Below are positions 6,828-59,956 of a DNA stretch of 64,000 nt, piece after piece. The stretch comes from Lachnospiraceae bacterium. Its GTDB lineage: Bacteria; Bacillota; Clostridia; Lachnospirales; Lachnospiraceae. A model generated the notes under the pieces. That model worked only from the letters and a program-made list of their open reading frames with translations, had not been told where the DNA came from and searched no databases. How positions within the stretch are numbered: the first letter of the stretch is position 1; every line of letters begins with the position of its first letter. The stretch spans positions 92,767-156,766 of the forward strand of contig JAAUZU010000008.1 of assembly GCA_014804445.1 (NCBI GenBank), in the 5' to 3' direction. Both the position numbers and the translations under genes were made by a program.

Positions 6828-6863
6828 AAAACAAAGTGTGTTGTAAAGAAAAGAGGGAGACTA

Positions 6864-7837
6864 TGGGCTATAAAGATTTGAAATTTGAAGCGGACAGTGT
6901 TTTCTTAGTGACGGGCGGTGCCGGTTTTATCGGCTCCAACTTGTGTGAAGCGCTGGTGGAGATGGGCTATACGGTGCGTTGTCTGGACAACCTCTCCACA
7001 GGCAGCTACGACAATATTGCGCATCTGGAGAAAAGCGGCAGATTTACTTTTATCAAAGGCGATATCCGTGATTTGGACACCTGCATGGAGGCATGCAGGG
7101 ATGTGGATTATGTGCTCAATCAGGCTGCATGGGGCAGTGTGCCTCGCAGCATCGAGATGCCTCTTTTATATGAGGAAATCAATATTCGCGGTACCCTGAA
7201 TATGATGGAGGCGGCGAGACAGAGCGGTGTGAAAAAATTTGTGTACGCGTCCAGTTCCTCCGTATACGGCGACCATCCGGTGCTGCCCAAGAAGGAGGGT
7301 GCGGAAGGAAAGCTTTTGTCTCCCTATGCGCTCACCAAGCGGGTTGACGAGGAGTACGGAAGGCTCTACAAGGTGCTTTACGGGCTGGACACCTACGGGC
7401 TCCGGTATTTCAATGTTTTTGGCAGACGGCAGAATCCCGAGGGCATGTATGCGGCGGTGATTCCGAAGTTTATTAAGCAGCTTTTGGCAGACGAAGCGCC
7501 CACCATCAACGGCGACGGCAGGCAGTCCCGCGATTTTACTTATATCGACAATGTAATCGAGGCAAATTTAAGAGCATGTTTGGCGTCCGAAGAAGCGGCA
7601 GGCGAGGCCTTTAACATCGGTGCAGGCGGCAGGGAATTTTTGATTGATATCTATTATGATTTGTGCAAGGCGCTGGGCAAGGAGATTGAGCCGAAATTCG
7701 GTCCCAGCCGCCCCGGCGATATCAGGGATTCCAATGCAGACATCAGCAAGGCCCGCGAGCTTTTAGGATACAATCCTGAATATGATTTCAAAGCAGGCAT
7801 TACACTTGCAATCGACTGGTACAAGGCAAATCTGTAG
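6864..7837 (+). CDS. UDP-GlcNAc(A)/GalNAc(A) 4-epimerase, TviC/WbpP type SDR
   Basis: LVTGGAGFIGSNL, RCLDNLSTG, YASSSSVYGDHPVLPK, YALTKRVDEEY, GLRYFNVFGRRQNPEGMYAAVIPKFI, NGDGRQSRDFTYIDNV; start placed after AGAGGGAG. Confidence 0.88.
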
Positions 7838-19478: not shown

Positions 19479-20663
19479 ATGAACATATTTGACAAAATTA
19501 TCTATCTGGTGGGAGCAATTACAACCGTCTTCTGCGTCGTTTTATGTCTTGTTTTGTTTTTTACAACCAAAAGCAAAAAGGCAAATGGCGAGAGAAACGA
19601 GCTGGACAATAAGACACAGGAAAAACCATGGACATTATCTACCTGGATTGCAGGCGTGTTTGTAGCCGGAACCGGTGTTGCATTGATGTATGCTCCCGCT
19701 GATTTGGTCGGATACATAAAAGAAGGGCTGAATCCGGTGGAGTCGATTACGATGGTCGCTCTGCTGAATGGGGCGCCTGTTTGGGCTTTGTATTCTATCA
19801 TGGGATTGTGGTACATGAAGCATATGGATTCCAAAATCGGTAAGCTTGCAGCAATGCTTTCAACTGTCTTGGGCATGTCTATTTCTCTTTGGACCGGAAT
19901 GAATACAGTTGCTAGATTTGTAGGGCTTTCATTTCCCGGTTTTCAATTCATGCTTGCAGCAATAACGGTGATGATTGCGATGTTGTCTGCAAAACGCAAT
20001 TTATTGAAGGGAATGTCACGGATGGCTTTTCTGGTGTTTGTGTTTGCGTTTTTAGCAGTTATTTCAACACCTCTTACAGACTTTAATTTTTCGCCGATTA
20101 CCGGAGCAATAACGGGTAATTTCTGGAGAGAATATTTCTCGGGCGCAACTGCGGCAAGTTGGATTTTCTGGTTCTTGTCGTGGACACCGACCGTATCAAG
20201 ATGGTTAGCACATATTTCAAAAGGCAGAACTATGAAAGAGTATATTGCGGGAACCATGATTTTGCCCACTGTTCTTGCTTTTGTCTGGATGGCTGTTTCA
20301 TGGATGTATCAGGATGTGATTATTAACTTTAACCTGGCACAGAATATTTCCTCGTTTATACCCTGCATTATTTTCATTATCTCAGGTATTTTGTTTATGA
20401 CGGGAACATTAGATTCTGACTGCAAAGTTTTTACGGAAGATTTGGAATCTTTGAGCAGCGGAAAACTAAAAAGAAATGCCACAATACCTTATTATGGATT
20501 GTTTGTATTATTTTTCTTTTGCCTGTTTATTTCCGGTATTATCAGCAATCCGTTTGCGTTTAACGAATACTCATCTTTGATTTTTATGCCGTTAATGATT
20601 ATGAGCATTGTTGAATGCGGTAAGCTTATAGTAAGAAAAAAGGATAATCGTGATGAGAGATAA
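19479..20663 (+). CDS. Polytopic membrane protein resembling a shortened BCCT-family transporter
   Basis: FWFLSWTPTVSRWLAHISKGRTMKEYIAGTMILPTVLAFVWMAVSW resembles the BCCT TM8-9 region (W-x-P-F-V-x-x-F-I-A-R-I-S-x-G-R-T-x-R-E); only 394 aa. Confidence 0.55.
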   Translation: MNIFDKIIYLVGAITTVFCVVLCLVLFFTTKSKKANGERNELDNKTQEKPWTLSTWIAGVFVAGTGVALMYAPADLVGYIKEGLNPVESITMVALLNGAPVWALYSIMGLWYMKHMDSKIGKLAAMLSTVLGMSISLWTGMNTVARFVGLSFPGFQFMLAAITVMIAMLSAKRNLLKGMSRMAFLVFVFAFLAVISTPLTDFNFSPITGAITGNFWREYFSGATAASWIFWFLSWTPTVSRWLAHISKGRTMKEYIAGTMILPTVLAFVWMAVSWMYQDVIINFNLAQNISSFIPCIIFIISGILFMTGTLDSDCKVFTEDLESLSSGKLKRNATIPYYGLFVLFFFCLFISGIISNPFAFNEYSSLIFMPLMIMSIVECGKLIVRKKDNRDER

Positions 20664-21606
20664 GATATTAATTCTAGGAGCGGCGGGGTTTATCGGAACC
20701 AATCTGACTCTGCGGCTTTGCCGGGAGCAAAAGAAATTGGTGTTATTCGAGCAAAAAGGGGCACAATATCAGGAAATTGTTCTAGGGTCGGCAAAGGCGG
20801 GGAACATCGAGTTCGCGGAGGGAGCTTTTACGGAATACAAAAGTGGTGATTGGCTGGAGCAGCTTCCCTGCCTTAAGGAAATCGACACGGTTTATCACTT
20901 GATCAGCACGACATGTCCGACGAATTCCAACCGAAATATGGCGGTGGAAATGGAAGAGAATTTGATTGCGACCATTCGCTTTCTGGATGCCTGTGTAAGT
21001 GCAGGGATACCGAAGGTGGTATTCCTGTCATCCGGCGGAACCGTTTACGGCAAGAAGCATACGGGTCTCTGCCGGGAGGAGGAAGAGGCATTCCCCATTA
21101 CGGTATACGGGATGCAGAAACTGAGTATAGAAAAAGCGTTGTATCTTTATCGGCAGATGTATGGAATGGATTACAGGATTATAAGGCTGGCCAATCCATA
21201 TGGACCGTATCAGAAGCCCAATGGTATACAGGGCGCAGTGACGACCTTTACCTGGCGGGCGATTCACAAGGAACCGATTCAGGTGTATGGAGATGGTTCG
21301 GTTGTTCGGGATTATATTTACATCGACGATGCCATAGATGGGATTGTCCGGATTGCAGAGTGTCAGGGAAAGCATCGATTGTATAATTTGGGAAGCGGAA
21401 GAGGACATTCGATAAAAGAGGTAATCGAAATGATTGCCGAAGTGCTGGGAGAGCTGCCGAAAGTCCGGTATCAGGCGGGACGTCCGGTGGATGTGCCGGT
21501 TAATGTGTTGGATATCAGCCGGTTTGAACAGGATTTCGGAAAACTGAAGGCGATAGAGTTGAAAGAGGGAATCTGCAGATTGGTGGAATTTTATCAGAGC
21601 CTGTAA
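20653..21606 (+). CDS. NAD-dependent epimerase/dehydratase (UDP-glucose 4-epimerase-like SDR)
   Basis: ILGAAGFIGTNLTLRL, FLSSGGTVYGKK, YGMQKLSIEKAL, RLANPYGPYQ, VYGDGSVVRDYIYIDDAIDG. Confidence 0.88.
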   Translation: MRDKILILGAAGFIGTNLTLRLCREQKKLVLFEQKGAQYQEIVLGSAKAGNIEFAEGAFTEYKSGDWLEQLPCLKEIDTVYHLISTTCPTNSNRNMAVEMEENLIATIRFLDACVSAGIPKVVFLSSGGTVYGKKHTGLCREEEEAFPITVYGMQKLSIEKALYLYRQMYGMDYRIIRLANPYGPYQKPNGIQGAVTTFTWRAIHKEPIQVYGDGSVVRDYIYIDDAIDGIVRIAECQGKHRLYNLGSGRGHSIKEVIEMIAEVLGELPKVRYQAGRPVDVPVNVLDISRFEQDFGKLKAIELKEGICRLVEFYQSL

Positions 21607-38838: not shown

Positions 38839-40314
38839 ATGACAACAAATATTTACATTGAGCATGCTTCAGGGGCAGCCTATCCACAGTGGGACGCTAA
38901 AGCATGTTACGGACCGGATGCAATATATCCGGAGTTTTCTTCCGAAAGTGGGGAGATAGTATTATCGCAGGAAAATAAGGTATATGAGATGGTTCGGAAC
39001 ACGATTGCCGGATTGGGAATGGACAGTGAGCATTTTGGAACTTGTGACTGGAATCCATTTCAGGACTTTATCGCGCAGGGAGAAACCGTACTGATTAAAC
39101 CTAATATGGTGTGCCATTATAACGGAGATAAGCGTTATGGAACGGATTGTCTGGTAACGCATCCCGCAATCGTGAGAGCAGTTCTTGATTATGTAGTTTT
39201 GGCGCTGAATGGCAGCGGTCGGATTATTCTGGCAGATGCGCCGGTTCAAAGCTGTGATTTTGAGGTGTTAGTAAAAGAGCTGCATTATGATGGATTGGTG
39301 GATTATTTTCAGAATAATGGCATAAGCGTCGAACTGATGGATTTGCGCCAGTTAGATGAAGTATACCTGCAATCTTTGAGCCACAACGCCTGCTTTACTG
39401 CCAAGAATGAGGATGTGACGGTCAGTATCGGGGAAGACAGCGCTTTCTGCAGTCGAAAGGATATGAAAAAGACGGCGGACAAACTTCGTATTACCAATTA
39501 TCTGCCGGAGCATATGAGGGAATATCATGATGAAGACAAGCATATGTATTCCGTTGCAAAGGCGGTACTGGAGGCGGACGTTATTATCAATCTTCCCAAG
39601 CCTAAAACACACCGTAAGGCAGGGATGACCGCATCTCTTAAAAATATGGTTGGCTGCGTGGCAAAGAAAGAGTGCCTGCCCCATCACACAAAAGGAAGTA
39701 AGGCGGAGCAGGGCGATGAGTATTTAAAAAAATCTGTTTTTAAAAGATGGCGGACAGCGTTGGAGGAAAAGAATGACCGGCTTGTGGCAAAGGGCAGGAA
39801 AAAATCAGGACTGATTGGGCTTGTACAAATTTTCCTGTATAAGGCTTCCAAAGTGAGTCATGCGGATGTATATGCAGAGGGAAGCTGGTATGGAAATGAT
39901 ACGCTGTGGAGAACCATTTGTGATATCTGCAGGGTGGTTATGTATGCAGACAAGACGGGAGCGATGCAGCCAAAGCAACAGAGAAAGATGCTGATATTGG
40001 CAGATATGATTGTATCAGGAGAAGGTGAGGGACCGCTCTGCCCGAGTCCCAAACCTGTAGGTATATTGCTCGGCGGCTGGGAACAGATAGCAGTTGATAA
40101 AGTAATTGCTGCTTTGATGGGATTTGACTCAGAACATTTTCCTTCCATCAAAAACGCGAACTTAGGCAAAGAATACAGGCTTCCGGACAGCACTGCTGAA
40201 ATATCCTCTAATAATCCTGTATTTCATAAGAAAAGCCGGCAGGAGATAAAGAAGAAAGTTGTTCCGTTCCTTCCTACATCGGGCTGGAAAGAATGTCTGG
40301 AGGAATCCATATGA
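38839..40314 (+). CDS. DUF362 domain protein
   Basis: ETVLIKPNMVCHYNGDKRYGTDCLVTHPAIVRAVLDYV, INLPKPKTHRKAGMTASLKNMVGCV, KMLILADMIVSGEGEGPLCPSPKPVG. Confidence 0.8.
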   Translation: MTTNIYIEHASGAAYPQWDAKACYGPDAIYPEFSSESGEIVLSQENKVYEMVRNTIAGLGMDSEHFGTCDWNPFQDFIAQGETVLIKPNMVCHYNGDKRYGTDCLVTHPAIVRAVLDYVVLALNGSGRIILADAPVQSCDFEVLVKELHYDGLVDYFQNNGISVELMDLRQLDEVYLQSLSHNACFTAKNEDVTVSIGEDSAFCSRKDMKKTADKLRITNYLPEHMREYHDEDKHMYSVAKAVLEADVIINLPKPKTHRKAGMTASLKNMVGCVAKKECLPHHTKGSKAEQGDEYLKKSVFKRWRTALEEKNDRLVAKGRKKSGLIGLVQIFLYKASKVSHADVYAEGSWYGNDTLWRTICDICRVVMYADKTGAMQPKQQRKMLILADMIVSGEGEGPLCPSPKPVGILLGGWEQIAVDKVIAALMGFDSEHFPSIKNANLGKEYRLPDSTAEISSNNPVFHKKSRQEIKKKVVPFLPTSGWKECLEESI

Positions 40315-41342
40315 AAAATATGTTGATAATCAAGGATTTAAGGGACTGGTTCTGGGTGACATATCCCGACTGGACAACGAAAATGTCTTTGAATGTGGAG
40401 TATATTACAAAGTATTTTGAGGATTTGGGATATTGTGTTGAACTAACTTCTTACCGTGAATTTGATTATGCGAAAAACTATGCGGGCTATATTGTGCTGT
40501 ATACTTCCGCGGAAGATTATTGTGGCGGTTCTAAGGCATTTATTGAAGATGTGTTGGTGTATTTGAAACAGCAGGGAGCAGTTTTGTTGCCGGAGTTTCG
40601 GTATTTTCGTGCGCACGATAACAAGGTTATGATGGAAATTCTGCGGTCGGGGTTTGAAGATGACAGGTTAAAGACGATTCATTCAAGCGTATGGCCTTCT
40701 TATGAGGCGTTAAAGGCCGCACATTTTACAGAGTACCCGGTGATAATAAAAAAGGCAGGAGGGGCAGGCGGAGAAGGCGTGTTTCTGGCAAAGAATCAAA
40801 AAGAGCTGTACCGTTATGCGAAAAAGGTATCGCGCATGACAAATTTGCTGCAGTTCTATTATTTGTCCTGTGTCAATGTAAAGCAGAAGCTTTTGGGAAA
40901 GAAGCTGGTGCTAATCCATAACAGCAAGTTTATTACACAGAATTATATCGCAGGTTTGTCGGGGGATTATAAGGTTCTGGTGTTTGGAGAACACTATTTT
41001 GTGCTGCATCGCCTAAATCGGACAGGAGATTTCCGCGCCAGTGGGAGCGGACAGTTTACGCAGGATGCAGCCAATGAAATAGAAGCCGTGCTGGAGTTTG
41101 CAGAAAATTGTAAGGCATCCATACATGCGCCATGGCTGTCCCTTGATATTTGTCACGACGGCAGTGCCTGCCATTTGATAGAGTTTCAGTGTATTTCTTT
41201 TGGTTTTAAGGCGATGAGCTTATCGGAGCGCCACTATATGCGTGAGGGAGGTAAGTGGAAGGTAGTGGAAGGGCGTGTTATGCCGGAACAGGAATTTTGC
41301 GACAGTGTCCGCTATTATCTGGAGAAATGCAGGGAGGAATAA
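40311..41342 (+). CDS. ATP-grasp-like protein
   Basis: YPVIIKKAGGAGGEGVFLAKNQKELYRYAKK, FITQNYIAGLSGDYKVLVFG, WLSLDICHDGSACHLIEFQCISFG; start at MKNMLIIKDLRDWFW. Confidence 0.7.
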   Translation: MKNMLIIKDLRDWFWVTYPDWTTKMSLNVEYITKYFEDLGYCVELTSYREFDYAKNYAGYIVLYTSAEDYCGGSKAFIEDVLVYLKQQGAVLLPEFRYFRAHDNKVMMEILRSGFEDDRLKTIHSSVWPSYEALKAAHFTEYPVIIKKAGGAGGEGVFLAKNQKELYRYAKKVSRMTNLLQFYYLSCVNVKQKLLGKKLVLIHNSKFITQNYIAGLSGDYKVLVFGEHYFVLHRLNRTGDFRASGSGQFTQDAANEIEAVLEFAENCKASIHAPWLSLDICHDGSACHLIEFQCISFGFKAMSLSERHYMREGGKWKVVEGRVMPEQEFCDSVRYYLEKCREE

Positions 41343-41344
41343 GC

Positions 41345-43225
41345 ATGTGCGGCATATGCGGTTTTATCAGTAAAAGCACGATCACGACAGAGCAGTTAAG
41401 GGCAATGAATGAAACCATGTATCATCGGGGGCCGGACGACAGCGGAGAGGAAATATATCCGGCAAAGGACGCATATACGGTGGGGTTTGCCCAGCGCAGG
41501 CTGTCCATTTTGGACTTGTCGGAATCAGGTCATCAGCCCATGCATTCGAGGGATAAAAGGCTGTCAGTGGTATACAATGGGGAAATTTATAATTTTCAGG
41601 AAATAAAAGAGGAGCTAAAGGACTATCCGTTTTGCTCTTCCTGTGACACGGAAGTGATTCTTGCTGCCTATTTAAAGTGGGGAATTGCCTGTGTGGACAA
41701 GTTTAACGGTATGTTTGCCATTGCATTATATGACAGGGAGACGGAGGAGGTATACCTTGTCAGGGACAGAATCGGCAAAAAACCTTTGTATTACTGGTAT
41801 TGTGAGGGAAATATGGCGTTTGCCTCCGAACTGAAGCCCCTGTTTCAGTATCCGGATTTCAACAAGAAAATACGTACCGATGTGATTTCACGCTATTTAC
41901 TTTTACAGTATATCAATGCGCCGGATACCATCTTTGAAAATGTATATAAGTTAGAACCGGGGGCAGTTTTGCGGTTTAAAGGCGGGCAGGTAACGACATG
42001 GAAATATTGGGACGTCCAAAAGGTTTATCAGGAGAATAAGTCAAATCCGGTAACGGATTATACGCAGGCAAAGGAGGAATTGAAGGAACTGCTGAATCGT
42101 TCAGTCAGACTCCGCATGATTTCTGATGTACCTTTGGGAACCTTTTTGAGCGGAGGGTATGATTCTTCGCTGGTGACGGCGATTGCGCAAGAACATTCGA
42201 AGGAGCCTGTGAAAACCTTTTCTATAGGCTTTCAGGAAGAAAAATATAACGAAGCAGAATATGCCGCGCAGGTTGCAAAGTATTTGGGAACCAGTCATAC
42301 AGAGCTTTATATCGATGAAAAAGAAATGTTTGAAATGGTGGACAGTATTCCGAAGTACTATGACGAGCCTTTTGCAGACAGTTCTCAGATTCCTTCCATG
42401 CTGGTGGCAGGTCTGGCAAAGAAAGATGTCACTGTGGTTTTGTCAGGTGATGGCGGCGATGAGTTTTTTTGCGGCTATAATGTCTATGACAGAGTGGGGC
42501 AGGCGCAGAAACTGGATGGATTGGGAGAAATGCTCTATCGTTTTTGCAATCTTCCGGGTATCCATAAAACAGGAATTATGAATAAGCTTCCCTTTAAGAT
42601 AAGGGTGATTGCAAAAAACAGGGATAAAAATACAAAAACGCAAATTACTTCGGATAACTATCTGCGGGTAGTACGAAAAATGGTAAAGGAAGAAGGCATT
42701 CCGCTTCATTATCCGATAGAGAGCCGGTATCACGAAAAAAACTGGCAGGAGCGCAGAATGCTGCTGGATATGGATACCTATCTGCCGGGTGATATCCTGT
42801 GTAAAGTGGACAGAGCTTCCATGAAGTATTCTTTGGAGAGCCGCTGCCCTATTCTTGACAGGGATGTGATGGAATATTCATACAGGCTCCCTCATTCCTT
42901 TAAGTACGGAAATCATGTTAAGAAAAGGATTTTGAAAGATATTGCGTATGATTATATTCCGAAAGAATTGTTGGAACGTCCGAAAAAAGGCTTTAGCGTC
43001 CCCATTGATAAATGGCTCAGGGGACCGTTAAAGGAGCAGCTGCTTACCATGACAGAGCATAATTTTGTAAAATCGCAGGGTATTTTCGATGCGGATTTTA
43101 TTTCCGGTATGGTGCAGACATACATGGAACATGAAGATGGGGGACCTGCTACAGGAGCAAATTATTCTAAACTTATGTGGTCCTATTTTGTGTTTCAGCA
43201 ATGGTATGATTTCTACATGAAATAA
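41345..43225 (+). CDS. asnB: Asparagine synthase B-type glutamine amidotransferase (copy 1)
   Basis: MCGICGFIS (Cys nucleophile), MYHRGPDDSG, SGGYDSSLVTAIA (PP-loop), CKVDRASMKYSLESRCPILDRDVMEYSYRLP. Confidence 0.93.
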   Translation: MCGICGFISKSTITTEQLRAMNETMYHRGPDDSGEEIYPAKDAYTVGFAQRRLSILDLSESGHQPMHSRDKRLSVVYNGEIYNFQEIKEELKDYPFCSSCDTEVILAAYLKWGIACVDKFNGMFAIALYDRETEEVYLVRDRIGKKPLYYWYCEGNMAFASELKPLFQYPDFNKKIRTDVISRYLLLQYINAPDTIFENVYKLEPGAVLRFKGGQVTTWKYWDVQKVYQENKSNPVTDYTQAKEELKELLNRSVRLRMISDVPLGTFLSGGYDSSLVTAIAQEHSKEPVKTFSIGFQEEKYNEAEYAAQVAKYLGTSHTELYIDEKEMFEMVDSIPKYYDEPFADSSQIPSMLVAGLAKKDVTVVLSGDGGDEFFCGYNVYDRVGQAQKLDGLGEMLYRFCNLPGIHKTGIMNKLPFKIRVIAKNRDKNTKTQITSDNYLRVVRKMVKEEGIPLHYPIESRYHEKNWQERRMLLDMDTYLPGDILCKVDRASMKYSLESRCPILDRDVMEYSYRLPHSFKYGNHVKKRILKDIAYDYIPKELLERPKKGFSVPIDKWLRGPLKEQLLTMTEHNFVKSQGIFDADFISGMVQTYMEHEDGGPATGANYSKLMWSYFVFQQWYDFYMK

Positions 43226-47219: not shown

Positions 47220-48338
47220 ATGAATCAGCGTAAGAAGAAAATTGTAATATTTTGCAGCTCGCTGGCACGGGGCGGAACAGAGCGGGTTGCGGTAAATTTG
47301 GCGGAATTCATGAAAAACAGAGGTATTTCTGTTACGATAGTGACGCAGTATCGCGCCAAAAATGAGTATGCACTTCCGGATGGGGTGTCCAGAGTGTTCA
47401 GTGAGATTACGGACGATGAGGCCGCCGGAAACCGGATTGGGAATTTTTTTGCAAGGTGCAGAAAGTTACGCAGAATCTGGAAGGAACAGAAGCCGGACTG
47501 TATTCTTTCTTTTATAGGGAAAAATAATGTGATGGCGGTGCTGACCGCGCTTTTTACAAAAATTCCGGTGGTGGTTTCGGTGCGCAGCGAACCCAAGTAT
47601 GAGAATGCTACACATACCATGCGTTTCCTGGCAAAAACGTTGTTTGTGGGGGCGGCAGGTATCGTGGTGCAGACAAAGGAAGCAAAGAAATTTTTCCCGG
47701 TTTATCTGCGCAGCAGAACTGTGGTGTTAAAAAACCCGTTGAATCCGGATTTTGTCAGACCACGTTTTACGGGGGAAAGGGATGGGAATATTGTAGCTGT
47801 AGGAAGAGTGGACAGCAATAAAAACCATGAGATGATTATACGAGCTTTCTCGCGGCTGACGAAAGAATTCCCGCAGTCTGCGCTTACTATTTACGGAGAA
47901 GGCGAATGTAGAAAAGGCTTGCAGGAACTGGCGGACAGACTGGGCATTTCGGACAGAGTGAGTCTCCCGGGAGCGGTAACGGATGTCCCGGAAAAAATTT
48001 ATAAAAGCAGTGTTTTTGTGCTTTCTTCCAATATTGAGGGTATGCCGAATGCGCTGTTGGAAGCAATGTGTCTCGGCCTTCCGGTTATATCTACAGACTG
48101 CCCCTGTGGTGGACCGGGAGAACTGATTGAGGATGGTGTGAATGGCTTTTTGATACCTGTAGGTGATGAAAAGGCGCTGGAGGACAGGCTGCGGCTGCTC
48201 TTGAAAGATAGAGACAGGGCGGAGCGTATGGGAGAACAGGCAGTTCTTCTTCAAAAAGAATATGAGCCGGATAAGGTAAATGCAGAGTGGCTGGCTTATC
48301 TGGTTTCCAAAATGGGAGGAAAGGCATGTGCGGAATAG
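47220..48338 (+). CDS. GT4 family glycosyltransferase
   Basis: CSSLARGGTERVAVNLAEFM, SSNIEGMPNALLEAMCLGLPVISTDCPCGGPGELI; paralog of 37681..38787. Confidence 0.93.
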   Translation: MNQRKKKIVIFCSSLARGGTERVAVNLAEFMKNRGISVTIVTQYRAKNEYALPDGVSRVFSEITDDEAAGNRIGNFFARCRKLRRIWKEQKPDCILSFIGKNNVMAVLTALFTKIPVVVSVRSEPKYENATHTMRFLAKTLFVGAAGIVVQTKEAKKFFPVYLRSRTVVLKNPLNPDFVRPRFTGERDGNIVAVGRVDSNKNHEMIIRAFSRLTKEFPQSALTIYGEGECRKGLQELADRLGISDRVSLPGAVTDVPEKIYKSSVFVLSSNIEGMPNALLEAMCLGLPVISTDCPCGGPGELIEDGVNGFLIPVGDEKALEDRLRLLLKDRDRAERMGEQAVLLQKEYEPDKVNAEWLAYLVSKMGGKACAE

Positions 48339-50227
48339 CAGGTATCTGTAATTACGGAGATAATCCGATTGGAAATATAGAGGCGATGAACCGTATGCTG
48401 CTGCGTCGTGGACCGGACGCAGGAGGATACTGGCTTGATGAAAAGGAAAAAGTGGTATTGGGACACAGGCGGCTGTCTATTGTGGAATTGTCGGAAGCAG
48501 GGGCGCAGCCCATGGTTTCTGACAGCGGCAGGTATGTAATTGTTTACAATGGAGAGATATATAACGGACAACAGATAAAAGAACGGCTTTCTGCAAAGCA
48601 TGAAAGCAGCAACAGACTATTTTCCTTCCGTGGTACTTCCGACACGGAAATACTGCTGGAGGCAATTGAGAGTCTGGGCATACAGGAGACACTGCTGATG
48701 GCAAAAGGCATGTTTGCTTTTGCTGTTTATGACAGGGATGAGAAAGCCCTGTATTTGTCCAGAGACAGAATCGGTGAGAAGCCGCTTTATTACGGGATGA
48801 CTGGAAACAGCTTTGTATTTGCTTCTGACATTGCTGCGATTAAGGCAGTAGAGTGGTTTCACAACGAAATCAATACAGAAGTACTGGGGTTGTACTTTCG
48901 ATATGGCTATATCCCGCAGCCGTATACAATTTACCGGGGAATATGGCAGTTAAAGCCCGGGACGTATTTGAAAATCAAAGTCCCTTTTGCGGAGTGGGAA
49001 GAAAAAAGTTACTGGGATATTTTACAGGTGGCGGAAAGCGGGCAGGAAAACCTGTTTCACGGAACGGAGCAGGAGGCGGCGGAACAATTGGAAATTCTGC
49101 TGAAAGAGGCGATAAGAGGCCAGATGAGAGCCGATGTTCCTTTAGGGGCTTTTTTGTCTGGCGGCATTGACAGCACACTGGTAGTGAGTCTGATGCAGTC
49201 CATGAGCGATAAAAAAATCCGTACTTTTACAGTTGGTTTTGAGGAACAGGATTACAATGAAGCACAATATGCCAGAGAGACGGCCGGATATTTGGGAACG
49301 GAGCACACGGAATTGACTGTTGGTTTTTCTGATGTGATGGATGTGCTGACGCATTTGCCGGAAGCTTATGCAGAGCCTTTTGCTGACAGTTCCCAGATAC
49401 CGACTATGTTGGTGAGCAAAATGACGAAACAGCATGTAACTGTTTCTTTGAGCGGAGATGCCGGTGACGAGCTGTTCTGTGGTTACAATACCTACAAGGA
49501 TATGGAGCAGGGACTGCGCATTGTGCAGGGAAAAGCAGGTTTTCTGCCGCAGCGGATGCGAAAGGGGATAGGAAGGCTCTGCGGAGCGGTGAGTAATGCG
49601 CATACGCCGCTGCTATACAAGGTGGCCGGCTGTTTTTCCGTAGATTCGGCGGAGTCCTATTATCGTATGATGGGAAATACGGATTGCAGGATTCCTTATC
49701 TGCCAAAAAGTAAAGCAGTTTTGCCCTGCAGTAACGATATGTATGCGGACGGCTGTCTGAAAGATGCAAGACATAATCTGATGCTGATAGATATGCTGCA
49801 ATACCTTCCCGACGATATTCTGGTAAAGGTAGACAGGGCGGGTATGTACTATTCGCTGGAAAACAGAATTCCGCTTCTGGATAAGGATGTGATAGAATTT
49901 GCGTGGAAGCTTCCCATACAGTATAAGTTTCAGGATGGGATAACCAAGAAGCCCCTGCGTCATATTTTATATCGGTATGTGCCGAAAGAAATGATGGAGC
50001 GTCCCAAGAAAGGGTTTGGAATTCCGGTAAGCGAGTGGCTGCTGGAAGGGGAACTGCATGAATGGGCGGAAAGTACCATGTCAGATGCAAGACCCATGGC
50101 AAAGGAATTTCTGAATTTGAAATATGTGGACAGCATTTGGAAGGATTTCCTGGCAAATCATAAGTGGAATCCTGTTATTTGGTATGTACTTATGCTGGAA
50201 CAGTGGATGCTGTATGTAAAATTATGA
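48326..50227 (+). CDS. asnB: Asparagine synthase B-type glutamine amidotransferase (copy 2)
   Basis: MCGIAGICNYG, LLRRGPDAGG, SGGIDSTLVVSLM, VKVDRAGMYYSLENRIPLLDKDVIEFAWKLP. Confidence 0.93.
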   Translation: MCGIAGICNYGDNPIGNIEAMNRMLLRRGPDAGGYWLDEKEKVVLGHRRLSIVELSEAGAQPMVSDSGRYVIVYNGEIYNGQQIKERLSAKHESSNRLFSFRGTSDTEILLEAIESLGIQETLLMAKGMFAFAVYDRDEKALYLSRDRIGEKPLYYGMTGNSFVFASDIAAIKAVEWFHNEINTEVLGLYFRYGYIPQPYTIYRGIWQLKPGTYLKIKVPFAEWEEKSYWDILQVAESGQENLFHGTEQEAAEQLEILLKEAIRGQMRADVPLGAFLSGGIDSTLVVSLMQSMSDKKIRTFTVGFEEQDYNEAQYARETAGYLGTEHTELTVGFSDVMDVLTHLPEAYAEPFADSSQIPTMLVSKMTKQHVTVSLSGDAGDELFCGYNTYKDMEQGLRIVQGKAGFLPQRMRKGIGRLCGAVSNAHTPLLYKVAGCFSVDSAESYYRMMGNTDCRIPYLPKSKAVLPCSNDMYADGCLKDARHNLMLIDMLQYLPDDILVKVDRAGMYYSLENRIPLLDKDVIEFAWKLPIQYKFQDGITKKPLRHILYRYVPKEMMERPKKGFGIPVSEWLLEGELHEWAESTMSDARPMAKEFLNLKYVDSIWKDFLANHKWNPVIWYVLMLEQWMLYVKL

Positions 50228-51869: not shown

Positions 51870-52916
51870 ATGAAAAGATTTTTTATAGAATTTTTTGCAG
51901 TTGTATTCTTTCTCCTGATTCTGATAGGTGGATTTGACTTGGTAATTGACCCGCTTTATCATTATCATGCCCCGGTGGGCGGAACTGCGCCGTATTTGTT
52001 CAATCAGGTATACCAGATGCCGGGCGTGGCATCGCACTTTCAATATGATTCCGCCATTGTCGGTACAAGTATGACGGAGAATTTTCGGGTTTCCTGGTTT
52101 GAGGAAATGGGGCTGCATGCCGTGAAATTATCCTATTCAGGCGCCCGCAGCCTGGACATCAGAACTGTTCTGGATAAGGTGTATGAAAGCGGGAATGAAG
52201 TAAAGTATATTTTAATGGATGTAAATGATTACCAACTGACTTCGGATGCGAGCCAAAGATATGTGGAGCAGCCTGCCTATCTGTATCGAAATGTATGGTG
52301 GGATGATACGGAATATTTGTGGAACAACGATGTGTTCTGGATGTCCGTAGGAAGGGTGCTGGAGAAACTGACGAACAACCAGCCAAAGCTGGATGATGCG
52401 TATACATGGGAGGAACCGGAACTTTTCTCGGCGGAAATCGTAAAGGAGGACTGCAGGGAATATGTGGAAAGCCTGCGGGAAACGCAGGAGGTGTATGACT
52501 GGCAGGAAGAGTATGCGAATTGTGAGAACAACCTCAATAACATCATTCCGGTGATAGAGGCGCATCCGGAAACAGAGTTTGTTATCTTTTATCCGCCGTA
52601 CAGCATCTTGTACTGGGAAGAGCAGGTATTAAAAGGACGTGCAGAGGGAATTCTCAAAATATATGAATATTCCATGAACAGGCTGCTAAAGTATGAAAAT
52701 GTAAGAATATTTGCCTTTCAGGATGAAGAAGAGATTATTACGAATCTAGACAATTATCGTGATGTCTGCCATCACACACCGCAGGTAAACCGATATATTT
52801 TTGATTCCGTTATGAGCGGCAATAAAGAAATTACGATGGAAAACATAGATGCCTATTTTGAAGGCATGAGACGAATGGTCAGCGAATATCCGTATGAAGT
52901 AAACTGGATTGACTGA
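51870..52916 (+). CDS. Membrane-anchored SGNH/AlgJ-DltD-like acyltransfer partner, copy 2
   Basis: VIDPLYHYHAP, AIVGTSMTENF, FYPPYSILYW, NLDNYRDVCHHT; same order relative to MBOAT as 5756..6802. Confidence 0.65.
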   Translation: MKRFFIEFFAVVFFLLILIGGFDLVIDPLYHYHAPVGGTAPYLFNQVYQMPGVASHFQYDSAIVGTSMTENFRVSWFEEMGLHAVKLSYSGARSLDIRTVLDKVYESGNEVKYILMDVNDYQLTSDASQRYVEQPAYLYRNVWWDDTEYLWNNDVFWMSVGRVLEKLTNNQPKLDDAYTWEEPELFSAEIVKEDCREYVESLRETQEVYDWQEEYANCENNLNNIIPVIEAHPETEFVIFYPPYSILYWEEQVLKGRAEGILKIYEYSMNRLLKYENVRIFAFQDEEEIITNLDNYRDVCHHTPQVNRYIFDSVMSGNKEITMENIDAYFEGMRRMVSEYPYEVNWID

Positions 52917-52923
52917 AAAAGAG

Positions 52924-52952
52924 ATGACTTTTCCCCAAGATAATGCTATAAT
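52924..52952 (+). promoter_or_regulatory. Promoter module ATGACT-N17-TATAAT with TGC extended -10
   Basis: 17-bp spacer; shares GATGACTTTT-N4-AAGATAATGCTATAAT with 55196-55225. Confidence 0.6.
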
Positions 52953-53013
52953 CAACTTCATTGGATACACTGTAACAGTAAAAACAGATGAAAAGAAAGG
53001 TACGGTCATAAAC

Positions 53014-54006
53014 ATGTTAAACGACAAAGCAATACTGGTCACCGGAGGCACAGGCACATTCGGCAAGGCATTTACGCGATACGTATTAGAACATTATAAC
53101 CCGAAAAAAATCATCATCTATTCCCGCGATGAGTTCAAGCAGTTTATTATGCAGAATGAGTTCAAGCCTTATGCAGACAAGCTCCGCTTTTTTATTGGTG
53201 ACGTCAGGGACAGGGAGAGGCTGACAAGGGCGCTTGACGGCGTTGACTATGTGATCCATGCGGCGGCCTTAAAGCAGGTGCCGGCATGTGAATACAATCC
53301 GGCTGAGGCGATTAAAACCAATGTCAACGGCGCGCAGAACGTAATTGACGCCTGTCTGGATACCAATGTAAAGAAAGTGGTTGCGCTTTCTACCGATAAG
53401 GCAGTAAATCCGGTCAATCTGTATGGCGGAACCAAACTGGTTTCGGATAAGCTTTTTATTGCAGCTAATGCATATGCGGGCGCAAGGGACATCAGTTTTT
53501 CCATCGTGCGTTACGGCAATGTGGCAGGCAGTCGGGGCTCAGTCATTCCATTTTTTGATTCTATTTTAAAAAACGGCGGTACGGAGCTTCCCGTCACGGA
53601 CTATCGCATGACCCGTTTCTGGATCAGCCTGCAGCAGGGCGTGGAACTGGTCATTAAGGCTCTGGAGGAGGCAAAGGGCGGAGAGACCTTTATCTCCAAG
53701 ATTCCTTCCTTCAAGATAACGGATTTGGCGGAGGCGATGGCGCCCGGCATGGCGACGAAAGAGGTCGGAATCCGCGAGGGCGAGAAGCTGCATGAAATCA
53801 TGGTGACGGTGGAGGATGCGCCGAACACCTATGAATATGACAAGCATTTTATTATTTACCCGCAGATGGTATGGAGCGAGCATAAGCGGGCGGTGCCGAC
53901 CGGTAAAAAGGTTCCCGAGGGATTTTCCTATAGCTCAGGAAATAACAGCGAGTGGCTTTCCGTGGAGCAGATAAGGGAGCTGCTTTCCGCGATGAAAGAG
54001 GAATAG
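53014..54006 (+). CDS. pseB: UDP-N-acetylglucosamine 4,6-dehydratase (inverting), PseB type
   Basis: ILVTGGTGTFGKAFTRYVLEHYNPKKIIIYSRDEFKQFIM, HAAALKQVPACEYNPAEAIKTNVNGAQNVIDACL, VRYGNVAGSRGSVIPFF, FSYSSGNNSEWLS. Confidence 0.92.
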   Translation: MLNDKAILVTGGTGTFGKAFTRYVLEHYNPKKIIIYSRDEFKQFIMQNEFKPYADKLRFFIGDVRDRERLTRALDGVDYVIHAAALKQVPACEYNPAEAIKTNVNGAQNVIDACLDTNVKKVVALSTDKAVNPVNLYGGTKLVSDKLFIAANAYAGARDISFSIVRYGNVAGSRGSVIPFFDSILKNGGTELPVTDYRMTRFWISLQQGVELVIKALEEAKGGETFISKIPSFKITDLAEAMAPGMATKEVGIREGEKLHEIMVTVEDAPNTYEYDKHFIIYPQMVWSEHKRAVPTGKKVPEGFSYSSGNNSEWLSVEQIRELLSAMKEE

Positions 54007-54229
54007 AGGCGAATATACCAAAAAATTTCTACTCTTGCATAGTAAAATATATTTTTAACGAAAAATTGTGATAAAATGTCGAAAAATAAAATCGACAGGC
54101 TGAACAGCATAAATTTTGGAAAGATGAGACAGCAGCTTGCAGGAAGCGAAGCGTTTCCGTCATTTCTGAAATTATGCTGTTTTATTTTGCCTGCTATGCG
54201 TAATGCATTGCATAAGAGGAGGAGTTTAT

Positions 54230-55216
54230 ATGTTGTACTCATTGCTGAATTCAAATACAGACTATTATGTGAACCTGCATGGGGAGCAGGTGATTACACA
54301 CGCCGAGAAAAGTGTCTGGAAGGGAACGGACTGCATTTGGCAGGAGGAACCGGTGTCAGCAGGGATTATGCAGCGGATTGCCGCCACGGATATCCAAAAC
54401 GAGAGGCTGTTTATAGATTTCGGAGGCGTTTTGCAGCAGCAGAGCGATGGGGAAAAAGAGATACAGGAGACCCTGGAGCTTTTGCACAGAAGGAAGAACA
54501 CGGTTTATCTGATGAACATTGTGGAAGAAGCCGGAATTCGTCTGGAGAAGGGGCTTGAGAAAAAAGGAATTGTCATGCAGAGAGAGCAGGCAGAGGGCGG
54601 CGGATGGTTTTGTGAAGTGTCGCCGTCTAATAGTGCGCGGGACATCCGTCAGGCGGCATTGTGCGAGAAGGCAATCCATGATATCCATATGGACAATCTG
54701 CTGATTTTGATGGAGGAGAGTCCGAAGGGGAAGACCTTTCAAATAGACAGGCTTTTGCAGGATGGAGAAAACTGCCTCTATTACTTTTTTTACAGGCTTG
54801 CCATGCGGCTGATAGAGAAGGGAATGGTGGAACCTTTTGGAAAAAACAGGGATAAACTCTGCTTTGTGCCGGACAATCCGCCTGCCGTACCGATTGCAAA
54901 AGCATTGGCAGTATTCCTCGGTACTGAGGTGCAGTGTGAGGAAGCACAGAATGGCAGGTTTCGGCCGGATATGGAGTATATCATTGTGCGGGATGTGTTT
55001 CACATGTCCTGCGAGCTGGACAGGCTGAGCACGGCGATTTCCATGAGCGGCGGACTGGTGAAAGGCGTCGCCTGTCTGGTGGATATCTATACCGGCGTGG
55101 GTAACAGAAAGAACCGGGTCAGCCTTCACACCATTGATTTGGAGCGGGGAATCAGCTATAGAATAAGGCAAAAACGGGAAAACTTAGGGCAAAAGGATGA
55201 CTTTTGGAAAAGATAA
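54230..55216 (+). CDS. Uncharacterised protein with C-terminal phosphoribosyltransferase-like segment
   Basis: PAVPIAKALAVFLGTEVQ and YIIVRDVFHMSCELDRLSTAISMSGGLVKGVACLVDI resemble a PRTase fold with a degenerate PRPP loop; start after AGGAGG. Confidence 0.45.
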   Translation: MLYSLLNSNTDYYVNLHGEQVITHAEKSVWKGTDCIWQEEPVSAGIMQRIAATDIQNERLFIDFGGVLQQQSDGEKEIQETLELLHRRKNTVYLMNIVEEAGIRLEKGLEKKGIVMQREQAEGGGWFCEVSPSNSARDIRQAALCEKAIHDIHMDNLLILMEESPKGKTFQIDRLLQDGENCLYYFFYRLAMRLIEKGMVEPFGKNRDKLCFVPDNPPAVPIAKALAVFLGTEVQCEEAQNGRFRPDMEYIIVRDVFHMSCELDRLSTAISMSGGLVKGVACLVDIYTGVGNRKNRVSLHTIDLERGISYRIRQKRENLGQKDDFWKR

Positions 55217-55260: not shown

Positions 55261-58242
55261 ATGCAGCAGTTATTTTTACAACAGAGTTATCAGGATTGTT
55301 GGGAAATATATGAAAAGAGTCTGCAGAATGGCTCGTGTATCAGGTGGGATTATGTGGTTTTAACCGCATCCAACGAGGCGCAGGCCGAGAGTTACCGGAC
55401 GCAGATAGAGTACCGCAGCATGTCGGGGTATCTGCCTGAGAACACGAAATACGTGGTATTGGCTGACCCGGATGGAAAGCGGGTGGGAAGCGGCGGCGCC
55501 ACGTTAAATGTGCTGCGCTATCTGGCTGAGGATGGGTGCGGCAGCTTTTCAGGCAAGCGGATTCTGGTGATACATTCCGGCGGGGACAGCAAGCGGATTC
55601 CCCAGTACAGTATATGCGGCAAAATTTTTTCCCCGGTTCCCAGAGAACTGCCGGATGGCAGGAATTCCACGCTGTTTGATGAATTTATGATTAGTATGGC
55701 GGGCGTTGCCGGCAGGCTCAAGGAGGGTATGCTGGTGCTTTCCGGAGACGTGCTGCTGTTGTTCAATCCTCTCCAGATTGATTTTACCTTTTCGGGGGCG
55801 GCTGCGCTCTCCATCAAGGAGCCGGTTTCTCTTGGGACAAGGCATGGCGTTTTCTTGAACGACGGTTCCGACTATGTGGGAAGATTTCTGCACAAACAGA
55901 CAGAGGAAGTGCTTACAGAATATGGCGCGGTCAACGACAGGGGCTGCGTGGATTTGGACACGGGAGCGGTCGCGCTGGATGTAAAGCTGATGGAAGCGTT
56001 ATATGGTCTTATCAGCACGGACGGCAGGGTGGATGAGGAAAAATTTGCCTGTTTTGTCAATGAAAAGGCGCGTATCAGTTTTTACGGCGATTTTCTCTAT
56101 CCGATTGCAAAAGAGGCGGATAGGGAATCCTATATGAAAGAGGCGGGAGACGGCCCTGTGTGCGAGGAGCTTCTTTCCTGCAGACGGGCAATCTGGGATG
56201 CCATTTCAGGTTTTTCCATGCGGCTGCTCAGTCTGACGCCGGCGGAGTTTATCCATTTCGGCACCACGAAGGAACTGCGGGAGCTTATGACAAAGGGCGT
56301 GGAGGAGTACGCCTTTTTGGGCTGGAAAAAAACGGTGGGAACAGGGTTCGAGCAGGGGGGACTGGCGGTCTACAATTCCCTCATCGGACAGGGTATATTT
56401 GTAGATGACAAGGTGTATATAGAAAACTCCGTGCTGAAATCCGGTATGCGGATTGGACGGGGCAGCATTATCAGCAATATCCGGTATGCCGGAGAGGAAA
56501 AACCGGTGATTCCCGCCGGTGTGGTATTGTCGGGCGCACGTCTGCTGGACGGACGTTTTACGGTTCGTATTTATGGTGTGGAGGACAACCCGAAGGATAA
56601 AATCGGAGAAATGATGAGCGGCAATATCCTGACTCTTTTGGGGGAGGATATTACATTGTGGGAGGCTCCCATTTACCCTGTCTGTGAGGAAAGGGACGAG
56701 GCTGTGCAGGCGGCGCTTATCACATACCGTATGATGAAGGGAATTGCCTCGGTTGAGGAAAAAGAGTGGTGGCTTGCGCAGGAGAAAATCAGCCTGAGCC
56801 GGAGCTTTGCGCAGGCGGACGTCCGTTATGCTGTTACCGGTGTTTTAGAACTTGCGGAGCAGATTGCGGTTTACCGCGCTATCTTGCTGCTGGCGCAGCA
56901 ATTGCCGTGGCAGGCTGCCATGGAGGTATTTGGTAAGCGGGGCATGAACGAAGAGCAGGAGAAGCAGATGCTTGCGATGGCGGGTACGGTGGAGTTCGGC
57001 ACATCTGTCCGGATTTACAACGCGCTTGCAGGCGAAGCAAAGCGGCGCGGGCGTTCTTATGAGAACTATGAAAAAATGTGTTTTGCGGCAATCCGCAACG
57101 CTGTGTATGAAAATAATGGCGTCCACTGTCAGGAAATGCTGCAGTTTCAGAAGGATGAGGCGCATGTGGAGTTTCCGGTCCGTGTCAACTGGGCGGGAGG
57201 ATGGACGGACACACCGCCCCATTGTCTGGAAAAAGGCGGCACAGTGGTCAATGCTGCCATCAAGGTAAACGGCGTGCTGCCGGTACAGGTTACGGTGCGG
57301 AAAATAGAGGCATTAAAGATAGAGGTGGCAAGCGAGGATATTGGTGCGTTTGGGGAATTGTGTTCGCTGGAAGAAATTTACGACTGCAGCAATCCCTACG
57401 ATGCCTTTGCCCTGCATAAGGCGGCTCTGCTTGCCTGCGGCGTGGTGCCGGAGGTCTTGCCCGAGGGAGAAGGTCTTACCCTTCAGGATGTTTTAAAGAA
57501 GCTGGGCGGCGGACTTTTCCTTTCCACGCAGGTTGTGGGGATTCCAAAGGGATCAGGACTGGGCACCAGCAGCATACTGGCGGCGGCATGTATCAAAGCT
57601 ATCTATGAGGTGATGGGCGTATCTGCTGCGGACGAAGAGCTGTACAGGCTTGTGCTCTATATGGAACAGCTTATGAGCACGGGAGGCGGCTGGCAGGATC
57701 AGGTCGGCGGACTGTGCGGCGGTATCAAGTTTATCACCACCACGCCCGGGCTTACACAGGATATCCGGGTGCGCAAGGTAGAGATAAGCGAGACGGCGGC
57801 AGCGGAGCTGCAGGAGCGTTTTGCACTGATTTATACGGGTCAGCGGCGACTGGCGCGCAACTTGCTCAGGGATGTGATGAGCAGTTATATCGGCGGACGG
57901 CGAGAGACTGTGGAGGCGCTGTATTTTATGCACAAGATGGCGGCGCTTATGCGCTTTGAGCTGGAGAGAGGCGATATTGACGAGGTGGCAAAGCTCTTGA
58001 ACCGGCACTGGGAGCTGTCAAAACAGCTCGACGACGGCTGCACCAACACTTGTATTGAGCAGATATTCAGGGCTTGTGAGGATTTGATAGCCGGCAGATT
58101 TATTGCGGGAGCCGGCGGCGGTGGCTTTTTGCAGGTGATTTTAAAACGGAATGTGACGAAACAGCAGCTTCGCGAGCGGTTGAGAGAGGTATTTCAGGAC
58201 AGCGGCGTGGATGTTTGGGACAGTGAGTTTGTGTGGGAATGA
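55261..58242 (+). CDS. fkp: Bifunctional L-fucokinase / fucose-1-phosphate guanylyltransferase-like (Fkp/FKGP family)
   Basis: DPDGKRVGSGGATLNVLRYL, HSGGDSKRIPQYS (L-fucokinase/pyrophosphorylase domain); C-terminal GHMP kinase VRVNWAGGWTDTPPHCLEKGG, GIPKGSGLGTSSILAAACIKAI, GGGGFL. Confidence 0.9.
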   Translation: MQQLFLQQSYQDCWEIYEKSLQNGSCIRWDYVVLTASNEAQAESYRTQIEYRSMSGYLPENTKYVVLADPDGKRVGSGGATLNVLRYLAEDGCGSFSGKRILVIHSGGDSKRIPQYSICGKIFSPVPRELPDGRNSTLFDEFMISMAGVAGRLKEGMLVLSGDVLLLFNPLQIDFTFSGAAALSIKEPVSLGTRHGVFLNDGSDYVGRFLHKQTEEVLTEYGAVNDRGCVDLDTGAVALDVKLMEALYGLISTDGRVDEEKFACFVNEKARISFYGDFLYPIAKEADRESYMKEAGDGPVCEELLSCRRAIWDAISGFSMRLLSLTPAEFIHFGTTKELRELMTKGVEEYAFLGWKKTVGTGFEQGGLAVYNSLIGQGIFVDDKVYIENSVLKSGMRIGRGSIISNIRYAGEEKPVIPAGVVLSGARLLDGRFTVRIYGVEDNPKDKIGEMMSGNILTLLGEDITLWEAPIYPVCEERDEAVQAALITYRMMKGIASVEEKEWWLAQEKISLSRSFAQADVRYAVTGVLELAEQIAVYRAILLLAQQLPWQAAMEVFGKRGMNEEQEKQMLAMAGTVEFGTSVRIYNALAGEAKRRGRSYENYEKMCFAAIRNAVYENNGVHCQEMLQFQKDEAHVEFPVRVNWAGGWTDTPPHCLEKGGTVVNAAIKVNGVLPVQVTVRKIEALKIEVASEDIGAFGELCSLEEIYDCSNPYDAFALHKAALLACGVVPEVLPEGEGLTLQDVLKKLGGGLFLSTQVVGIPKGSGLGTSSILAAACIKAIYEVMGVSAADEELYRLVLYMEQLMSTGGGWQDQVGGLCGGIKFITTTPGLTQDIRVRKVEISETAAAELQERFALIYTGQRRLARNLLRDVMSSYIGGRRETVEALYFMHKMAALMRFELERGDIDEVAKLLNRHWELSKQLDDGCTNTCIEQIFRACEDLIAGRFIAGAGGGGFLQVILKRNVTKQQLRERLREVFQDSGVDVWDSEFVWE

Positions 58243-58799
58243 GGATTCAGATGGACAGATACGAAGACGAAAATATCTACCTCCGCCTTATGACGGACGA
58301 GGACACGGAGGACATTATCCGCTGGCGGAACAGCGACGCAGTGCGAAAAAGGTTTATCTATCAGGCGCTTTTTACAAGGCAGTCCCATGAAAAATGGGTG
58401 GAAACCATGGTGCGCACCGGCAAGGTGGTGCAGATGATCATCTGTGAAAAAAAAGGAGATAAGAAGGTCGGTTCCGTGTATATCAGGGATATCGATGCAG
58501 TACACCATAAAGGAGAATACGGTATCTTTATTGGTGAGGCAGAAGCCAGGGGAAAGGGATACGGAACGGCGGCAGCGCGTTTGATGAAGCGGTATGCTTT
58601 TTCAGAGCTGCATCTGCATCGCCTGTTTCTGCGGGTGTTTGCGGACAATGCGCAGGCGATTGCAAGCTATGAAAAAGCCGGCTTTGTAAGGGAAGCATAT
58701 CTTAGGGACGATGTGTGCATAGACGGGCAGTTTCGGGATATCGTACTGATGGCTGTGCTCGCGGAAACAGATACAAAAGAAAACAAACAGAAGTCTTGA
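58239..58799 (+). CDS. GNAT family N-acetyltransferase (RimJ/L, PseH/WecD-like)
   Basis: IYLRLMTDEDTEDIIRWRNSDAVRKRF, GIFIGEAEARGKGYGTAAARLMKRYAF, ASYEKAGFVREAYLRD; ATGA overlap with fkp. Confidence 0.88.
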   Translation: MRIQMDRYEDENIYLRLMTDEDTEDIIRWRNSDAVRKRFIYQALFTRQSHEKWVETMVRTGKVVQMIICEKKGDKKVGSVYIRDIDAVHHKGEYGIFIGEAEARGKGYGTAAARLMKRYAFSELHLHRLFLRVFADNAQAIASYEKAGFVREAYLRDDVCIDGQFRDIVLMAVLAETDTKENKQKS

Positions 58800-58819
58800 A
58801 AAGACAGAAAAGAGGAGCT

Positions 58820-59956
58820 ATGAAATTTAATTTTAACGTACCACCCTATACGGGAAAAGAAGCAGAGTATATCGCGCAGGCTGTGCAAAACCAGAAAATC
58901 TGCGGCGACGGTGAGTTTACAAAAAAGTGCAATAAGTGGATAGAAGAGAAGACAGGAACGAAGAAGTGCCTGCTGACCACTTCCTGCACCCATGCAACGG
59001 AGCTTGCGGCTCTGCTTTTAGATATCAAGCCCGGGGACGAGGTCATTATGCCGTCCTACACCTTTGTGTCCACGGCGGACGCTTTTGTGCTGCGGGGAGC
59101 GGTGCCGGTGTTTGTGGACATCAGACCGGATACCATGAACATCGACGAAAAATTGATTGAGGACGCCATAACGGACAAGACGAAGGCGATTGTACCGGTG
59201 CACTATGCAGGCGTGTCTTGCGAGATGGACACGATTATGGACATTGCGGAAAGGCATAATCTGTATGTGGTGGAGGATGCTGCACAGGGCATTATGTCTT
59301 CTTACAAGGGACAGGCGCTTGGCACTTTTGGAGAGTTTGGCTGCTTTTCCTTCCATGAAACCAAAAATTACAGCATGGGCGAGGGCGGCGCACTGCTGAT
59401 TCGGGATGATGCGTTCGTTGAAAGGGCGGAGATTATAAGGGAAAAGGGAACGAACCGCTCCCAATACTACAGGGGACAGGTTGACAAATACAGATGGGTG
59501 GATTTTGGCTCGTCCTATCTGCCCAGCGATATGAACGCGGCTTATCTGTATGCCCAGCTTGAGGTGGCGGAAGCAATTAATGACGCGCGGCTTGCCGTGT
59601 GGAACCGCTATTATGAAAATCTGACGCCTCTTGCGGAGAGTGGCAGAATTGAACTGCCCGTGGTGCCGGAGGGATGTGTTCACAATGCGCACATGTTCTA
59701 TATCAAGGCGGCGGATATGGAAGAACGGACAGCCTTGATAAACTTTTTGAAGGAGAATGATATTTTATCCGTATTCCATTATATTCCGCTTCACACAGCG
59801 CCTGCCGGACAGAAATTCGGGCGCTTCCATGGGGAAGACAGGTTTACAACAAGGGAAAGCGAGCGCCTGCTGCGTCTTCCCATGTACTATAAGCTGACGC
59901 CGGATGATGCGGATTATATCAGCGGCAAGGTGAAAGAGTTTTACGGCAGCAGGTAG
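58820..59956 (+). CDS. wecE: dTDP-4-amino-4,6-dideoxygalactose transaminase (WecE/RffA type, DegT family)
   Basis: KICGDGEFTKKCNKWIEEKTGTKKCLLTTSCTHATELAALLLDIKPGDEVIMPSYTFVSTADAFVLRGAVPVFVDIRPDTMNIDE, VVEDAAQGIMSSYKG, SFHETKNYSMGEGGA, IIREKGTNRSQYYRGQVDKYRW. Confidence 0.95.
   Translation: MKFNFNVPPYTGKEAEYIAQAVQNQKICGDGEFTKKCNKWIEEKTGTKKCLLTTSCTHATELAALLLDIKPGDEVIMPSYTFVSTADAFVLRGAVPVFVDIRPDTMNIDEKLIEDAITDKTKAIVPVHYAGVSCEMDTIMDIAERHNLYVVEDAAQGIMSSYKGQALGTFGEFGCFSFHETKNYSMGEGGALLIRDDAFVERAEIIREKGTNRSQYYRGQVDKYRWVDFGSSYLPSDMNAAYLYAQLEVAEAINDARLAVWNRYYENLTPLAESGRIELPVVPEGCVHNAHMFYIKAADMEERTALINFLKENDILSVFHYIPLHTAPAGQKFGRFHGEDRFTTRESERLLRLPMYYKLTPDDADYISGKVKEFYGSR

Follow-up and report, generated by a model that had tools for sequence, protein, structure and literature searches.

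Species of Bacteroides and Parabacteroides have both the salvage and the de novo route to GDP-fucose, and GDP-fucose is lost there only when the two are deleted together (PMC8698959). The crystal structures of the salvage enzyme of Bacteroides fragilis, FKP, have defined the catalytic and ligand-binding residues of its two sites (PMC11982464), and the same fusion of a GDP-fucose pyrophosphorylase with a fucokinase is found in plant FKGP and the other FKPs (clades A–C of PMC12732313). The GHMP fold of the kinase half is shared with HddA-type heptose kinases (3K85 and 4USK), which, however, lack both the fucose-stacking Trp and a PF07959 partner domain. A search of the literature on the GDP-fucose genes of Lachnospiraceae found nothing on point.

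Here we describe a gene of the FKP family, fkp, in a 64,000-nucleotide stretch of a Lachnospiraceae genome (positions 92767-156766 of contig C8), referred to below as the window. Its product resembles B. fragilis FKP (PDB 5YYS, 9IIP and 9IIT) in domain order and in catalytic and fucose-binding residues, and the genome resembles those of Bacteroides in pairing salvage with the de novo genes gmd and fcl. It differs from the Bacteroides systems in its remote sequence, in its Firmicutes host and in that several relatives cluster fkp with gmd-fcl-manC and a gene for an AraC-type regulator.

Domain architecture and active sites of the FKP-type protein

The fkp gene lies on the forward strand, from an ATG at window position 55261 to a stop codon ending at 58242, and its intact frame of 993 codons for amino acids is preceded by a Shine-Dalgarno sequence (AGGAG, 6 nt 5' of the ATG) that was graded good. 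Two domain groups are seen directly in the translated sequence. The N-terminal half contains the Pfam domain Fucose_pyrophosphorylase (PF07959; residues 96-476, 55546-56688), whose score of 280 bits exceeds the cut-off of 34. The C-terminal half of the same polypeptide contains GHMP_kinases_N (residues 758-821, 57532-57723), which includes the ATP loop GSGLGTSS as well as a TGGGWQDQ motif whose D813 corresponds to D762 of B. fragilis FKP, and GHMP_kinases_C (residues 900-979, 57958-58197), both above their cut-offs. The best relatives of solved structure were B. fragilis FKP 5YYS and 9IIT (E ~6e-75), with an alignment to residues 254-923 of that enzyme. The initial annotation had described a two-part, FKP-like protein of 993 residues here, which the reading frame, the Pfam domains and these matches confirm, and its four quoted motifs are all present (residues 76-88, 105-117, 644-654 and 764-776). 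It had correctly placed a GHMP kinase at the C-terminus, but its label of an "L-fucokinase/pyrophosphorylase-like" N-terminus needs correction, as the pyrophosphorylase occupies the N-terminal half and the kinase the C-terminal one.

The NCBIfam equivalog model for FKP, PRK13412, was matched over profile positions 47-950 of 974 with 469.1 bits, below its cut-off of 721, indicating a large distance between this protein and the Bacteroides enzymes that underlie this naming model. Judged by these profile scores, it is outside the PRK13412 equivalog and belongs to the wider FKP family; in close neighbours, the FKP is 90-97% identical to it. Taken as predicted activities, those of a bifunctional L-fucokinase/GDP-fucose pyrophosphorylase are supported by the domains and the structural relatives.

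Comparison with B. fragilis FKP at 21 functional positions revealed 20 identical residues and a single R-to-K exchange at R79, a backbone contact in the B. fragilis enzyme (PMC11982464). This exchange falls in the GTP-site motif HSGGDSKR (residues 105-112, 55573-55596, forward strand), which corresponds to H73-R80 of B. fragilis FKP according to HMMER alignments, the residue roles given in PMC11982464 and conservation. Across 77 aligned full-length FKP relatives, 19 of the 21 positions are invariant. They include, in the pyrophosphorylase, D69, G108, R112, K121, D163, K212 and H332 (D31, G76, R80, K89, D136, K187 and H272 of B. fragilis) and, in the kinase, R641, W648, D650, T651, E802, Q812 and D813 (R592, W599, D601, T602, E751, Q761 and D762). 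The fucose-binding motif GGWTDTPP (residues 646-653, 57196-57219, forward strand) aligns with W599, D601 and T602, so that the fucose-stacking Trp is retained as W648, whereas Gly occupies this position in the heptose kinases 3K85 and 4USK. Retention of this Trp and of the other site residues makes L-fucose the most likely substrate of the predicted enzyme.

De novo GDP-fucose genes and the extent of the locus

The initial annotation had noted no gmd/fcl pair in the window, which is literally true: the two SDR genes in the window (6836-7837 and 20650-21606) share with the E. coli enzymes only 33% identity over 158 amino acids (Gmd) and 22% (Fcl). The pair is missing because the window ends short of it. 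A search of the whole genome, proposed at the time as a check on salvage, turned up an intact gmd (C8:55723-56805), followed by fcl (C8:56853-57806) and manC (C8:57845-58912), likewise intact. All three share a contig with the window and lie about 34-37 kb upstream of where it begins. Gmd scored 521 bits with TIGR01472 (cut-off 415; match at C8:55731-56741 in a whole-genome profile search), is 60% identical to E. coli Gmd and conserves the S/T/E/Y/K catalytic positions. Fcl is 53% identical to its E. coli counterpart, conserves S107, C109, Y136, K140 and H179, and matched the full NF047922 profile with 481 bits, just below the cut-off of 500. The manC product resembles mannose-1-phosphate guanylyltransferases and scored 320 bits with the GMP-PMI fusion model (cut-off 373), the PMI part being absent. 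Candidate PGM/PMM-type mutases in the genome are weak matches to E. coli CpsG, and the C-terminal domain of type I mannose-6-phosphate isomerase (PF01238) had no match in the assembly, which is 87% complete, so that the supply of GDP-mannose is not fully demonstrated.

The relation between fkp and these genes was clarified by a Lachnospiraceae MAG from rabbit gut (L057), whose FKP is 65% identical to that of the window. Within 23 kb, this MAG carries the same upstream flank, followed by AraC, gmd, fcl, manC, GT2, a small ORF, GT2, fkp, GNAT, aminotransferase and DUF6077. The same gene set spans C8:52.7k to C8:157.3k in the source genome, where the small ORF (C8:60,365) and fkp (C8:148,027) are about 88 kb apart, compared to 1.5 kb in L057. 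As L057 has both blocks close together between the same flanks, fkp and gmd-fcl-manC of the source genome are, by this comparison of gene order, the opposite ends of one roughly 100-kb glycan locus, the middle of which, including most of the window, differs between the two genomes. Downstream of fkp, and overlapping its 3' end, is a GNAT acetyltransferase gene (58233-58799, forward strand; TIGR03585 PseH, 89.9 bits, cut-off 93.1) that adjoins fkp in the loci L055-L058, in which a gene for a WecE-type sugar aminotransferase (58715-59956, forward strand; TIGR02379, 652.7 bits, cut-off 434.85) is also kept downstream. Tighter arrangements occur elsewhere, some of them as a single operon, with the orders AraC-gmd-fcl-manC-fkp (G068), AraC-fkp-gmd-fcl (L066) and gmd-fcl-fkp with inter-frame gaps of at most 12 bp (L089).

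The large variable middle (window 1 to ~61000; C8:60.4k-148k) contains genes for glycosyltransferases, MBOATs, GT11, GT6, asparagine-synthase-like and ATP-grasp proteins. Among its glycosyltransferase genes, an ATP-grasp protein and two asparagine-synthase-like proteins (38839-41342, 41255-43225 and 48287-50227) suggest, as read from sequence, that the glycan may carry amide or amino-acid groups. Pseudaminic acid genes are scattered over the locus, and PseB (window 52909-54006), PseF (C8:72728-73447), PseI with a C-terminal GNAT-like part that is a weak PseH-like match (C8:73409-74929) and PseC (C8:76053-77255) each scored above the NCBIfam cut-off. Directly upstream of fkp, a forward-strand gene (54203-55216) encodes a protein of 337 residues with no Pfam or NCBIfam match, whose C-terminal half resembles a phosphoribosyltransferase fold by eye, although the predicted structure is poor (mean pLDDT 46); this gene is kept beside PseB in L056 and L058.

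Users and sources of fucose in the genome

The GT11 gene that the initial annotation had placed in the fkp locus was verified by a PF01531 match at 13756-14649 (forward strand). It encodes the only GT11 fucosyltransferase found in the genome, is likely to consume GDP-fucose and adjoins a gene for a GT6 glycosyltransferase of the A/B-transferase family (14646-15464, forward strand; PF03414). A single GH95 protein (L137; G000:C3:7911-10136), with no obvious signal peptide by eye, might release free L-fucose inside the cell. Neither a FucP permease nor a GH29 fucosidase was found in the 87% complete assembly, and the host as a source of free fucose is neither shown nor excluded by the gene content. 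A FucI-like match at C8:199981 was dropped as a sign of fucose catabolism, being a weak match to sulfoquinovose isomerase near a xylulokinase gene.

Association of fkp with gmd and a candidate regulator

In a survey of 200 Lachnospiraceae genomes, PF07959 had matches in 121, mostly short ones of ~18-31 bits to the beta-helix part of other nucleotidyltransferases, and true FKPs were defined as matches with E below 1e-50. By this definition FKP is encoded in 16 of the 200 genomes, and gmd above cut-off in 74. Of the 16 genomes with fkp, 12 also have gmd, versus 62 of the 184 others (one-sided Fisher p = 0.0015, a guide only since the genomes are related and non-independent and both genes may occur together in large glycan loci). 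The sign of this association is opposite to that of salvage replacing de novo synthesis, and from the joint occurrence across the family fkp is most likely a supplement to de novo synthesis, as it is in Bacteroides. A set of 80 fkp loci taken from genomes in GTDB, with no FKP of Bacteroidota or plants among them, includes 11 in which gmd lies within ~10 kb. The four fkp genomes without gmd (G157, G100, G013 and G161) indicate that salvage-only species probably exist among the Lachnospiraceae.

Adjoining gmd, outside the window, is a reverse-strand gene for an AraC-type protein (L138; C8:54721-55578) with a cupin-like sensor and an AraC helix-turn-helix domain. Nine of the 11 fkp-gmd loci have a relative of it adjoining gmd, and the 69 fkp loci that lack gmd contain no comparable match. 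In the 200 genomes, the 32 best matches (at least 186 bits) include 26 located no more than 3 kb from gmd, and 18 of these 26 belong to genomes without FKP. From its genomic position, the AraC-type protein looks like a candidate regulator of GDP-fucose synthesis; that it might sense fucose is only a guess.

Discussion

Combining domain analysis, residue conservation and gene order, we consider it very probable that the window encodes an ordinary FKP feeding the same GDP-fucose pool as Gmd-Fcl, so that salvage or recycling is added to de novo synthesis, with GT11 as a user. In the proposed scheme, the C-terminal GHMP kinase of FKP would use ATP to phosphorylate C1 of free L-fucose, and the N-terminal domain would then transfer GMP from GTP to yield GDP-L-fucose. 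If both routes are expressed, as we infer, FKP and the Gmd-Fcl pathway would fill one common pool, on which the GT11 of the window would draw. The input of FKP may be environmental fucose, or fucose freed intracellularly by the GH95 enzyme of the genome. Salvage may thus contribute GDP-fucose, though it is not the sole encoded source.

Salvage had initially been read as the only route, with the fucose of the predicted antigen scavenged from the environment and surface antigenicity dependent on host fucose. The absence of gmd and fcl within the window, and the family's 4 of 16 fkp genomes without gmd, would fit such a reading, but as gmd, fcl and manC are intact and share both contig and ancestral locus with fkp, and as neither FucP nor GH29 was found in the genome, it is very improbable, and both of its statements on host fucose are left unsupported. 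The initial annotation had itself named a complete de novo route to GDP-fucose as evidence against its inference, and by that standard the genes recovered here tell against it. The opposite extreme, in which fkp is a non-functional or unexpressed relic made redundant by the de novo pathway, draws on a genome of the same genus (G022) that has gmd and no FKP, meaning that fkp is dispensable; a full-length frame with all catalytic residues, the Shine-Dalgarno sequence and the high identity in close neighbours render a relic extremely improbable.

As for the sugar, published FKPs have relaxed C5 specificity and use D-arabinose (PMC11982464, PMC12732313), and L-fucose, D-arabinose and L-galactose, all accepted by known FKPs, cannot be told apart as substrates by sequence. 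It is nevertheless very unlikely that the enzyme mainly activates a sugar such as D-arabinose or L-galactose, given that all fucose-contacting residues are retained, that fkp is repeatedly linked to the genes for GDP-L-fucose synthesis, gmd and fcl, and that a GT11 fucosyltransferase gene is located in its locus. A role in an HddA/HddC-like pathway of D-glycero-D-manno-heptose activation is hardly conceivable: there is homology between HddA and the kinase half (NF049969, 88.9 bits; 3K85, E ~1e-25), yet this score is far under the cut-off of 600, the motif reads GGWTD rather than the GGGSD/GGGTD of 3K85 and 4USK, and the partner domain, PF07959, is specific to fucose pyrophosphorylases.

With an FKP that supplements Gmd-Fcl, the surface fucose of this gut-type bacterium is probably independent of the host, which corrects a tempting claim, namely the host-fucose dependence of a blood-group-like antigen, read from two genes missing in the window. 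Lachnospiraceae repeat the pairing of salvage with de novo synthesis known from Bacteroides, and some of their species have it in a compact gene cluster that includes a candidate regulator. It is conceivable, though rather doubtful at this stage, that the two routes of Lachnospiraceae form one regulated module, in which the AraC-type protein would detect either free L-fucose or the state of GDP-fucose and adjust the amount of fucose made or recycled. Were this the case, host fucose would tune surface fucosylation and not limit it.
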